This document shows, one piece after another, positions 59,312 through 64,000 of a stretch of 64,000 bases of DNA. Source of the stretch: Paeniglutamicibacter cryotolerans. Lineage in GTDB: Bacteria > Actinomycetota > Actinomycetes > Actinomycetales > Micrococcaceae. The position numbers were made by a program, and so were the translations under genes. Location of the stretch: contig NZ_JACHVS010000001.1 of assembly GCF_014190875.1 (NCBI RefSeq), positions 2,807,449-2,871,448 of the forward strand, read 5' to 3'. Under the pieces are notes generated by a model that was not told the origin of the DNA, made no database searches, and saw only the letters and a list, made by a program, of their open reading frames with translations. The first letter of the stretch is position 1; each line of letters begins with the position of its first letter.

Positions 59312-60651
59312 AACTCACGATCATCGGCGGCGGCGGATTCCGCGTACCGCAAATTTTCGAGGCGCTGGCCGCCGAAACCAAGACGGTCAGGATCACCGAA
59401 CTCTGCCTCTTCGACGCCGATCCGCAGCGTGTGGCGACCATCGCCTCGGTCCTTGGGCAGATGGCACCGGATCTTCCGCGACCGCCACGGGTCACCACGC
59501 AGGCGCGCCTCGATGACGCCATCGCCGGCGCCGCCTTCATCTTCTCCGCCATGCGCATCGGCGGGACCCAGGGGCGCACCCTGGATGAGCGCATCGCACT
59601 TGATTTGGGCGTGCTGGGCCAGGAGACCACCGGACCCGGAGGCCTGGCCTACGCGCTGCGCACGCTTCCCGCCGCCCGCGACCTGGCCGAACGCGTCGCC
59701 AGGCTCGCGCCCGAAGCAACTGTCATCAACTTCACCAATCCCGCGGGCATGATCACCGAGGCCATGCGCGAGGCGCTGGGGGACAAGGTCATCGGGATCT
59801 GCGATACACCCATCGGGCTCATCCGCCGGGCCATCGACGCCGTCGGCTCCACCCCGGACGCCGTCGACTTCGACTACATCGGCCTGAACCACCTGGGCTG
59901 GCTGCGGTCGCTGAGCGTCGACGGCGTCGATCGGCTGCCGGGCCTGCTGGCCGATGACGCGGCGCTGGAAAAGATCGAGGAGGCCCGGCTCATGGGCTTC
60001 GATTGGATCCGGGCCCTGGGCGCCATCCCCAACGAGTACCTCTACTACTACTACTTCCAGCGCGAGGCCACCGAGCGCCTGCGCGCGAGCGCCGAAACCC
60101 GCGGTGAGTTCCTGCACCGCCAGCAGGGCGGCTTCTACGAGCAGGCCTGCGCACACCCGGACAGTGCGTTGGAGCTGTGGCACCGCACCAAGCACGACCG
60201 CGAGGCCAGCTACATGGCCGAAAGCCGCCCCGAGGAGGAGCGCACCAACCGCGAGGCATCGGACATCGAGGGCGGGGGATACCAGCAGGTCGCCCTGGAC
60301 CTGATGACCGCGCTGCTCGGAGGCAAGCCCGCCACCATGATCCTGAACGTCGCCAACCGCGGCACCGTGCCGCAGCTGCCCGATGACGCCGTCATCGAGG
60401 TCCCGTGCACCGTCACGGCAGCTGGCGTGGTGCCTAAGCAGGTTGCACCGGTCACCGGGGAGATGCTCGGGCTGCTGCAGCAGGTCAAGGCAGTTGAGCG
60501 GCTGACCATCGCAGCGTCGAGGGAACGCGACGAGACGCTGGCCTGGCGCGCGCTCGCCGCGCACCCGCTGGTCGACTCGATCACCGTGGCCAAGCAGCTC
60601 TTGACGACCTACCGCGAGCAGATTCCGGGGGTTGCCGCAGCGTTCGGGTAA
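59308..60651 (+). CDS. 6-phospho-beta-glucosidase-like glycosidase, family GH4
   Basis: A 447-residue NAD- and Mn2+-dependent glycosidase of the GH4 family, which hydrolyses (phospho)glycosides by a redox-elimination mechanism. The NAD fold is KLTIIGGGGFRVPQIFEAL; FSAMRIGGTQGRTLDERIALDLGVLGQETTGPGG is a family hallmark; FTNPAGMITEAM and GICDTPIGLIRRA contain the metal-binding Cys and the Asp (CN-x-P in many relatives, here CDTP); LNHLGWLRSL supplies the metal His. GTG start overlaps the deoR stop. With an ABC importer and a kinase it suggests a route in which the sugar is phosphorylated after import. Confidence 0.92.
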   Translation: MKLTIIGGGGFRVPQIFEALAAETKTVRITELCLFDADPQRVATIASVLGQMAPDLPRPPRVTTQARLDDAIAGAAFIFSAMRIGGTQGRTLDERIALDLGVLGQETTGPGGLAYALRTLPAARDLAERVARLAPEATVINFTNPAGMITEAMREALGDKVIGICDTPIGLIRRAIDAVGSTPDAVDFDYIGLNHLGWLRSLSVDGVDRLPGLLADDAALEKIEEARLMGFDWIRALGAIPNEYLYYYYFQREATERLRASAETRGEFLHRQQGGFYEQACAHPDSALELWHRTKHDREASYMAESRPEEERTNREASDIEGGGYQQVALDLMTALLGGKPATMILNVANRGTVPQLPDDAVIEVPCTVTAAGVVPKQVAPVTGEMLGLLQQVKAVERLTIAASRERDETLAWRALAAHPLVDSITVAKQLLTTYREQIPGVAAAFG

Positions 60652-60774
60652 ATTCCTCGAGTGCTGATTGTATGATCCTGAGGCTGCCGCAGGGGTCACC
60701 GTTTTCGGCCCGTCCAGACCGACGGAGTAATGAAAATCCGGGTACGATTGATGCTTCGCGGCTAGTCAGCGAGT
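60652..60774 (+). promoter_or_regulatory. CRISPR leader
   Basis: A 123-base stretch between the GH4 stop and the first repeat, without a gene, less GC-rich than its neighbours and ending in GAGT before repeat 1. Repeats are intact at this end and variant at the far end, and the repeat strand matches the I-E convention, so this side is the leader, where new spacers enter and transcription starts. Confidence 0.7.
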
Positions 60775-63700
60775 ATGTTCCCCGCGCCTGCGGGGATGAG
60801 CCCACCCGGCCCAGACATCTCACCGCCAGAGGTTTATGTTCCCCGCGCCTGCGGGGATGAGCCCAAGAGTCGCGCCCAACCGCCCCACATCGGAAAATGT
60901 TCCCCGCGCCTGCGGGGATGAGCCCGACTCCGCGTAGGCAGGCATTACCGCTAGAGCATGTTCCCCGCGCCTGCGGGGATGAGCCCAAACCATCGGGGTG
61001 TCCGTCAAGGATGCCCCGATGTTCCCCGCGCCTGCGGGGATGAGCCCATGCGCGTCGGCTACGACCCGCGACGGCAACTATGTTCCCCGCGCCTGCGGGG
61101 ATGAGCCCTCCGGTTCCGTGGCAATTCATGCCCGCTGGCTATGTTCCCCGCGCCTGCGGGGATGAGCCCATTCCCACATCGTCCAATGCGGCGCCCGTAG
61201 CATGTTCCCCGCGCCTGCGGGGATGAGCCCTACACCCGACGCCATGACGCGATAGACGATGGATGTTCCCCGCGCCTGCGGGGATGAGCCCGACGGAGGT
61301 TGCGGCGAATCGGTTTGCCGCAAATGTTCCCCGCGCCTGCGGGGATGAGCCCAGTGCGTCAGATTCACGGATGCCCGTGATGCCATGTTCCCCGCGCCTG
61401 CGGGGATGAGCCCTCCTGCGACAGGACCTTGAAAGTATCCGACGCATGTTCCCCGCGCCTGCGGGGATGAGCCCTTCCTCGCCCGGCTCCAGCAGCTTCG
61501 TTTCGTATGTTCCCCGCGCCTGCGGGGATGAGCCCGCCTCGGCAGCCGTGTAAAAGCGCAGCTGCACATGTTCCCCGCGCCTGCGGGGATGAGCCCAAGG
61601 ACTTGTCGAAGAGTGGGCGTCGCACTGCATGTTCCCCGCGCCTGCGGGGATGAGCCCATCGGCGGGCGTCAGTTCTTCGGCGTCATGCAATGTTCCCCGC
61701 GCCTGCGGGGATGAGCCCAGTATGGGAAGCTTCCGGCTCCGTGGTCCTCCATGTTCCCCGCGCCTGCGGGGATGAGCCCCCCATCGGTAACAGTGTGGGA
61801 AGCTTCCGGCTATGTTCCCCGCGCCTGCGGGGATGAGCCCTCGCCTCATCGCGAAAGGAGTTCCCATGTTCAATGTTCCCCGCGCCTGCGGGGATGAGCC
61901 CGCAGCATCCAGCCAGTACACGCAGTCTCTTTCATGTTCCCCGCGCCTGCGGGGATGAGCCCTCGCGCAAGCCCTCAACCCGTGAGTGCCCACCATGTTC
62001 CCCGCGCCTGCGGGGATGAGCCCTACACGCCCGCATCGAAGGTCCGCGCCGTCTAATGTTCCCCGCGCCTGCGGGGATGAGCCCTCGACATGCTTCGTCC
62101 CGTACGTGGCCCGCACATGTTCCCCGCGCCTGCGGGGATGAGCCCATGGCCAACGACTGCCCGCCACCCTCGGTGATATGTTCCCCGCGCCTGCGGGGAT
62201 GAGCCCGTCCGACGGGATTCTCTGGCGACTAGGAGCCCATGTTCCCCGCGCCTGCGGGGATGAGCCCTGCGGACCTTCTCCGCGGCGGCCGCAGTCACCA
62301 TGTTCCCCGCGCCTGCGGGGATGAGCCCCGGAGTTGTTCCCGGGTTATACACGACGCAGAATGTTCCCCGCGCCTGCGGGGATGAGCCCATCCCGCCTTT
62401 TTTCTTCTGGTCACACCGTGGATGTTCCCCGCGCCTGCGGGGATGAGCCCTACGCCCCGGCCGTAGCGGACGTGACCGGATTATGTTCCCCGCGCCTGCG
62501 GGGATGAGCCCGCGCCATACGACGGGTAACACTGTCCTGGTGCATGTTCCCCGCGCCTGCGGGGATGAGCCCCCGGGCACAACTCCGGTTCCGTGGCAAT
62601 TCATATGTTCCCCGCGCCTGCGGGGATGAGCCCCAGTGCCACGACGAAGATCCGGGCTGTAGCTAATGTTCCCCGCGCCTGCGGGGATGAGCCCGTTGCC
62701 GTCTGGCTGGTCCCGGCAATTGCGGAATGTTCCCCGCGCCTGCGGGGATGAGCCCATGTCCCGAGTTGTTCAGCTCACTGTGCAGTAATGTTCCCCGCGC
62801 CTGCGGGGATGAGCCCACCAACAGCATCAACGAGACGACCGCGAACAAATGTTCCCCGCGCCTGCGGGGATGAGCCCATCCCGCCTTTTTTCTTCTGGTC
62901 ACACCGTGGATGTTCCCCGCGCCTGCGGGGATGAGCCCGGGGGCCGGAAGGATGCGCTCAGTCACCATTGATGTTCCCCGCGCCTGCGGGGATGAGCCCA
63001 GCATTGCGCCCGCCGTGCCGGTCATGCTTGGATGTTCCCCGCGCCTGCGGGGATGAGCCCAAGGTCGGCCCTGTTTTCACGTGGCTCTGGAAATGTTCCC
63101 CGCGCCTGCGGGGATGAGCCCTGCCTGATGAGCATCACCCACGGGCTGGAGGAATGTTCCCCGCGCCTGCGGGGATGAGCCCTCGGCATAACCGACATCG
63201 CGCGACTCGCCGGCATGTTCCCCGCGCCTGCGGGGATGAGCCCCCGTGCCCGGCCAGCAGTGCCGCATATCCGGCATGTTCCCCGCGCCTGCGGGGATGA
63301 GCCCACGTCCCAGTCGTGGGGAGTCACCGTCGAGGAATGTTCCCCGCGCCTGCGGGGATGAGCCCCGCAGTGAGCGTGCCGTGCGCCGGTCATCGTCATG
63401 TTCCCCGCGCCTGCGGGGATGAGCCCAGTCTTGACGGTCATGTGTGGCGATCCTTAATATGTTCCCCGCGCCTGCGGGGATGAGCCATGGCACCGGTGGG
63501 GGGATTATCGCCACGACACATGTTCCCCGCGCCTGCGGGGATGAGCCCACATCACCTAGCGCCTCCTCGGCCGCCATTATATGTTCCCCGCGCCTGCGGG
63601 GATGAGCCCGGTGGCGCTGCGCCACCACTGGATGCAGCGGCATGTTCCCCGCGCCTGCGGGGATGAGCCCTCCAATACTCTTCTGCCACCTGCTCGTTAG

Positions 63701-64000
63701 GTATGTTCCCCGCGCCTGCGGGGATGAGCCCGTTAGCCGCTTGGCCGCTCCGCCCGTGTACTGATGTTCCCCGCGCCTGCGGGGATGAGCCCAAGCAACC
63801 CGCTACTGTTTTGCACATACAAGAATGTTCCCCGCGCCTGCGGGGATGAGCCTCGGTAGGCTACGGCCATGGTTTATGCTCCTGCCATGTTCCCCGCGCC
63901 TGCGGGGATGAGCCCGAGGCCACGAGGGCATCATGGCGGGCGGCGACATGTTCCCCGCGCCTGCGGGGATGAGCCCCCGAACGCCAACGCCTCGTCTCAC
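60775..64000 (+). CRISPR. CRISPR array, type I-E-like repeat, 53 repeats, continues beyond the window
   Basis: The 29-base repeat reads ATGTTCCCCGCGCCTGCGGG followed by GATGAGCCC, with a CCCCGC-GCCT-GCGGGG hairpin. 53 copies start every 61 bases from 60775 (spacers of 32 bases); the last lies at 63948-63976 and a partial spacer runs to the window end. The exception is a 33-base spacer at 63854-63886. Repeat 45 (63459-63487) ends in A and repeat 51 (63825-63853) ends in T in place of C; all other copies are identical as far as I can see. The repeat is a close relative of the E. coli and actinobacterial I-E consensus. Spacer 27 (62390-62421) and spacer 35 (62878-62909) are identical. Spacers 6, 26 and 30 overlap each other in target, as do 16 and 17. 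No cas genes are present in this window. Confidence 0.97.

Follow-up and report, generated by a model that had tools for sequence, protein, structure and literature searches.

We find that the CRISPR array at the end of a 64,000-nucleotide stretch of Paeniglutamicibacter cryotolerans DNA (hereafter the window) is best explained, as a whole, by the capture of spacers from sites beside the motif AAC, the last base of each repeat being taken from the third base of this PAM. We assign this reading a probability of about 0.9. The evidence supports AAC as the acquisition PAM and a PAM origin for the final C of the repeat; it concerns which DNA was captured, and AAC is presumably accepted by Cascade in interference as well. 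According to the mechanism that we propose, the two A's of AAC would mark foreign DNA, and the third PAM base would enter with the prespacer and become the last repeat base, C instead of the G of E. coli; the trimming chemistry would be as in E. coli.

The array in the window (array A) comprises 53 repeats with 52 full-length spacers; it extends to the end of the window, which is also the end of contig C1. A second large array (array B), with 81 repeats, begins at the end of contig C2 in the same orientation, which brings the total to at least 134 repeats. Because the two arrays share one direction and both break off at contig ends, they may be a single array of at least 134 repeats, upstream of cas3. 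The contig break falls within CRISPR sequence, at position 64000 of the window on one side and at the start of the reversed locus L015 on the other. Units recur with a period of 61 bases and, of the 133 spacers counted over A and B, 126 are 32 nt long, as expected of type I-E with its palindromic repeat of about 29 nt. In what follows, A and B numbers denote the spacers or units of the two arrays.

Eight cas genes lie on C2 beyond array B in a single direction, and they form the type I-E set: cas3, cse1 (cas8e), cse2 (cas11), cas7, cas5, cas6e, cas1 (cas1e) and cas2 (cas2e). Cse1, Cse2, Cas5e, Cas6e, Cas1e, Cas2e and the Cas3 core exceed their NCBIfam cut-offs; Cas7, scanned as a fragment cut at a locus boundary, scored 175.4 against a cut-off of 178.05, and its gene is one open frame. 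PADLOC gave concordant names for seven of the eight Cas proteins, those that were submitted (Cas7 was left out). The locus is a type I-E system of the ordinary kind and is apparently intact. A small decayed array stands after cas2 (L014, 8880-9270, minus strand); its last repeat bases vary, and its first repeats have a common altered stem base (GCGGGT).

Table 1. Features of the window, in window coordinates; fractions give matching positions.
Feature	Position	Strand	Remarks
Presumed leader, upstream of repeat 1	60641..60774	+	Inferred from repeat orientation and from the degenerate repeat at the far end
Array A	60775..64000	+	Repeat ATGTTCCCCGCGCCTGCGGGGATGAGCC[C]; 53 repeats, 52 full spacers
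Spacer 6	61109..61140	+	Begins inside spacer 30 after AAC; overlap 21/21
Spacer 10 (A10)	61353..61384	+	AAC in L086 (28/32) and L085 (27/32); AGT in L037 (28/32)
Spacer 16	61719..61750	+	Begins inside spacer 17 after AAC; overlap 19/20
Spacer 17	61780..61811	+	Contains the PAM of spacer 16: AAC at 61789-61791 (+)
Spacer 26	62329..62360	+	Opposite-strand overlap with spacer 30, 14/15; PAM of spacer 30 visible as GTT at 62344-62346 (AAC on -)
Spacer 27, identical to spacer 35	62390..62421 and 62878..62909	+	From the all-against-all spacer comparison
Spacer 30	62573..62604	+	Contains two PAMs: that of spacer 6 (AAC, 62581-62583, +) and that of spacer 26 (AAC on -, seen as GTT at 62588-62590)
Spacer 32 (A32)	62695..62726	+	AAT in three relatives (29/32, 27/32, 26/32); AAC only at 25/32
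Spacer 34 (A34)	62817..62848	+	Viral contig L038, 27/32, AAC
Repeat 45	63487..63487	+	Last base A instead of C; from repeat parsing
Repeat 51	63853..63853	+	Last base T instead of C, its spacer 33 nt; from repeat parsing

A sequence-only reading of the window had proposed AAC on the grounds that several spacers overlap one another, so that the bases 5' of one protospacer are visible inside another spacer. The five spacers concerned (6, 16, 17, 26 and 30) lie exactly where it placed them, and all four of its readings of AAC as the three upstream bases were reproduced (Table 1). The overlaps are real, but two of the three contain one mismatch each, a correction to that reading, which implies that the spacers derive from variants of a target. 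AAC accounts for 1.3% of the trinucleotides in the spacers, and by our own arithmetic three further agreements with the first would occur by chance about twice in a million, which is rarer than the 1 in 260,000 given before.

When all 133 spacers of arrays A and B are compared with each other on both strands, only the three overlaps and three identical pairs (A27 with A35, B36 with B66, B56 with B57) stand out. No further partial overlap of such strength occurs among the 133, the next best score being 8.6 versus 14.1. Three pairs among the 130 distinct spacers score at least 14, and a pair that strong appeared in only one of 200 shuffled sets, a simple control in which letters were permuted within each spacer. 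The members of the A27/A35 pair stand eight units apart without any larger duplicated block, so that repeated capture of one site is possible.

Protospacers outside the arrays offer a second view of the PAM. We searched the joined spacers in 15 genomes from Paeniglutamicibacter, a relative of Arthrobacter, with the present genome among them, and obtained three matches outside the strain's own arrays. The best, for B65, agrees at 31 of 32 positions, lies in a likely prophage tape-measure gene and is preceded by AAC. A scan around the two matches in genome G001 gave A10 (28/32, AGT), B69 (29/33, AGT), B25 (27/32, AGC) and A32 (26/32, AAT). We then scanned 142 loci of phage relatives, 1.6 million bases with some contigs repeated, with the 130 distinct spacers. 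At a threshold of at least 26 positions, 13 spacers matched and no reversed spacer did; in a smaller scan the reversed control gave one match, at 24. AAC precedes the protospacer in at least one context for five of the 13 (A10, A34, B65, B69 and, after a shift of one base, B46), and it is absent at this threshold for the other eight (A32, A52, B9, B24, B25, B27, B55 and B58).

Several of these cases deserve comment. The repeat before B46 is one base short, and in the L072 match (26/31) AAC is displaced upstream by exactly one base, which would fit loss of the final C in trimming; a second match, in L082 (26/31), has no AAC at that place. B69 has AAC at 30/33 and 29/33, and matches of equal quality carry AAG or CCG. 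For B25, AAC is found in none of five contexts. B58 is preceded by CTC both in its phage match and in an overlap with spacer 45 of genome G150, the one readable pair among overlaps between spacers of different arrays, in which spacer 45 itself reads AAC. Targets without AAC are either diverged relatives or chance matches, and they constitute weak but real counter-evidence. Since most outside matches are diverged, they provide a weak test of the PAM. The best of them has AAC, and the more diverged ones are mixed.

Other searches added little. With array A, repeats included, as the query, INPHARED and PLSDB returned matches of low identity or high E-value and no convincing protospacer; the PLSDB matches listed (30 of 123 records) resemble arrays. 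The 21 bases common to spacers 6 and 30 have no exact match in viral_contigs; a degenerate pattern built for that target hit five loci, which agree with the spacers at no more than 21 of 32 positions and were taken as chance, and the pattern for the other overlap hit no locus. A family-wide scan of 395 genomes, with two candidates scored per genome, produced only weak additions such as A52, which resemble conserved genes or chance matches. A phage-like region of Paeniglutamicibacter antarcticus W2 (L037 / L059) is matched at 25 or more positions by A10, A15, A32, B25 and B69, around tail-like genes; genome G001, from the same genus, carries this stretch too, and the spacers match it in the same way.

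Taken together, the upstream bases begin with AA, as in type I-E generally, in all four internal readings and in at least one outside context each for B65, A34, A10 and B69. It is conceivable that the acquisition PAM is AAN, and that C is common only by virtue of base composition or the small number of readings. AAT or AAG at some diverged protospacers speaks for this possibility, as do the mixed last repeat bases of some actinobacterial type I-E arrays. Yet C occupies the third position in four of four internal readings and, if the last repeat base records the base at PAM -1, it does so in 129 of 133 units, unlike the mixed arrays. We therefore regard a PAM of AAN as improbable. The same counts separate this strain from the E. 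coli kind of system, which would have G both at PAM -1 and at the end of the repeat. They agree with an AAC consensus of the Bifidobacterium kind in the internal readings (4/4), the outside protospacers being few and mixed (5/13).

AAC as the acquisition PAM leads to the question of the repeat itself. The statement that the repeat ends in C holds for 51 of the 53 copies in array A, the exceptions being repeats 45 and 51; no protospacer was found for the odd units A45, A51 and B75. Position 29 takes four of the 11 substitutions over 134 repeats, an excess with a binomial P of about 0.0004 under the null that substitutions are spread evenly across the 29 positions, or 0.004 with B46 set aside as a missing base. 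Apart from B46, the last base is too invariant in this strain alone for a unit-by-unit comparison with PAM -1. The strain's own repeat ends in GAGCCC, so that base -1 is common to self and target; the two would be told apart by the C's at -2 and -3 versus the A's of AAC.

Related genomes allow the comparison, for each of the 14 further family members with parsed arrays has more than one kind of last base. For example, G066 has 149 C, 21 G and 2 T; G150 has 35 C, 9 G, 9 T and 1 A; G166 has 54 C, 9 T and 3 G; and G016 has 54 G, 4 T, 1 C and 1 A. Repeat bases 1-3 show at most two deviations per base and array, and the core is constant by construction, as it was matched exactly. Flanks of the family's 32-nt spacers were read in 220 non-array loci. 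For genus g12, the spacers of G054 and G077 (mostly C-ending) and of G099 (G-ending, with a repeat otherwise the same) were compared with the four genomes of that genus; for genus g3, about 101 of 253 spacers were searched in its 35 genomes. Spacers or phage genes, never the flanks, led to these loci, which leaves the comparison unbiased toward any PAM.

PAM -1 and the last repeat base are the same in 45 of 53 distinct spacers from eight genomes (best match at least 28/32). Agreement is 14/14 among matches at 32/32 and 50/59 when the threshold is lowered to 27. The other 19 flanking positions agree with the last repeat base in 3 to 22 of the 53, and permutation within genomes gave a mean of 33.9, with none of 20,000 trials reaching 45. 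The protospacer PAM is AAC for 20 of 25 C-ending repeats, AAT for five of eight T-ending repeats and AAG for eight of 19 G-ending repeats; the single A-ending case has ACA. The eight discordant spacers (G054b.27, G054b.34, G099.32, G099.31, G099.9, G166.35, G166.26 and G077.1) each have one to four target mismatches. The last repeat base is thus usually PAM-derived in the relatives, which explains the C of this strain's repeat and agrees with the earlier suggestion that the final C fits an origin in AAC.

Two further features of these genomes may be recorded. G166 has eight perfect matches of its own spacers outside the array (six with AAC, one with AAT, one with GCT; L251, L252, L254), that is, self-targeting, and it is a candidate for anti-CRISPR genes, or else for an assembly of mixed origin. 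L047, from G066, is an array of about 170 units in which many near-identical spacers (mostly 28-32 of 32) lie close together, as if blocks had been duplicated and had drifted.

The final C might instead be copied from the previous repeat, its match with AAC being a coincidence. Given the near-invariant C of this strain, the array alone cannot separate copying from an origin in the PAM. But position 29 is the most variable position of the repeat, and its variants are not inherited by neighbouring repeats; in relatives the base tracks PAM -1 inside single arrays (in G166, PAM -1 is C for 10 of 11 C units and T for six of seven T units); and there is a precedent in E. coli (PMC3338789, in the portion used here). 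We consider copying less probable still than a PAM of AAN. Finally, that the overlapping spacers are rearranged array DNA, so that AAC would not reflect the surroundings of a target, is scarcely credible and was rejected: the identical pairs can arise by recombination, but offsets of 11, 12 and 17 bases on both strands, two of them with a mismatch, are not a product of repeat-mediated recombination, and phage-like DNA also gives AAC for A34, A10 and B65. Acquisition beside AAC is accordingly the reading that we retain, carried by the four internal readings and by AAC at B65, A34, A10, B69 and, adjusted for its slip, B46.

If the last repeat base is a record of PAM -1, arrays of other organisms can be read in the same way. 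We surveyed last repeat bases beside cas1 in the Actinomycetes, among best matches only, and parsed 51 of 69 loci, the counts for four of these coming from arrays fetched apart. The commonest last base is C in 40 loci, G in 10 and T in one, and several loci are evenly mixed. In a Cas1 tree built from 49 rows, the label G requires seven changes, at least five of them forced by well supported branches, with one G row based on three repeats and another lying inside a mixed clade; G-ending repeats are therefore not one lineage. One Cas1 clade with a GGVNW-like end has mixed last bases (L275, L282, L300, L301, L303, L305, L308-L310, L315 and L316), from which a relaxed AAN PAM is predicted. A general link between an aromatic residue (W) in the Cas1 tail and mixed last bases was discarded, as it concerned a single clade and the regular expressions mislabelled some rows (L260, L265 and L013 among them).

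Two natural pairs bear upon what sets the third base. The first joins G328, with C at the end of 41 of 50 repeats, and G016, with G at the end of 54 of 60: their Cas1 proteins agree at 271 of the first 280 alignment columns and at 11 of the 34 that follow; the stretch matching that reported for Megasphaera Cas1 (in the portion of PMC10284694 used here) is unchanged. Between G099 (G) and G077 (C), Cas1 is identical over the first 160 columns and then diverges, with 13 of 36 in common at the end, versus 34 of 36 for G077 and G054, which both end in C. The rest of the operon is 91-97% identical between G099 and G054, with gene names assigned by order and size. Judged from the sequences, a natural exchange of the Cas1 cap thus coincides with a switch of the third base in both pairs, which we offer as a lead, and the C-terminal end of Cas1 would help to choose that base. 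Against this idea, divergence in the G099 pair starts before the end of Cas1, and the cases are few (two). When G328 is set beside G111, divergence extends to the final 77 residues of the likely Cse1 (69%) and to the gene that follows (72%).

The broadest form of the proposal is that every type I-E unit records PAM -1, so that the third base and its stringency could be read from any array without a virus, and that C and G have switched repeatedly in Actinomycetes through replacement of the Cas1 C-terminal end (the PAM cap), the AA-reading part staying constant. We regard this proposal as evenly balanced between right and wrong. Its interest is practical: finding a PAM usually requires matching viruses, which most strains lack, and the last repeat base of type I-E offers the third PAM base for each spacer, a guide that is usually predictive unit by unit (45/53). 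The mixed arrays of the survey predict relaxed PAMs, and the two C/G pairs single out a short Cas1 stretch as the candidate part.

An AAC PAM is not new in kind, being already in print for type I-E of Bifidobacterium (PMC8482600, Table 1, and PMC7284854, both in part); that system is likewise actinobacterial, and it belongs to another genus. What is extended here, to AAC, AAT and AAG in wild arrays, is the mechanism known from E. coli, in which the repeat owes its final base to the third PAM position, brought in with a 33-base prespacer (PMC3338789 and the review PMC10011333, in the portions used). Among the matches listed by our searches of open-access literature, none describes a unit-by-unit rule for actinobacteria or treats the Cas1 end as a switch. 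A Genome Biology survey, in the section drawn upon here, holds that the repeat does not allow PAM -1 to be predicted, and it connects the matching bases of type I-E with AAG. Directed evolution of Cas1-2 toward other PAMs is cited in PMC10415146 (likewise in part), so the choice of PAM by Cas1 is known to be changeable.

The gene set, the repeat stem, the 32-nt spacers and the PAM-derived last repeat base are those of E. coli type I-E as far as the cited portions describe it; the two systems differ in the third PAM base and the last repeat base, G there (AAG) and C here. The system of Streptomyces avermitilis (PMC4762764, in part) is also type I-E and is active there, with AAG as its PAM, and its last repeat base was altered by inverted insertion. 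The Megasphaera Cas1-Cas2/DEDDh complex (PDB 8FY9-8FYD) contains the solved Cas1 that ranks second in sequence similarity, behind 8HI1; its C-terminal end is comparable and caps the PAM in that organism; the cited portion of PMC10284694 describes base-specific contacts only to two T's, the complement of AA. Megasphaera Cas2 is fused to an exonuclease, unlike the Cas2 of the present locus.
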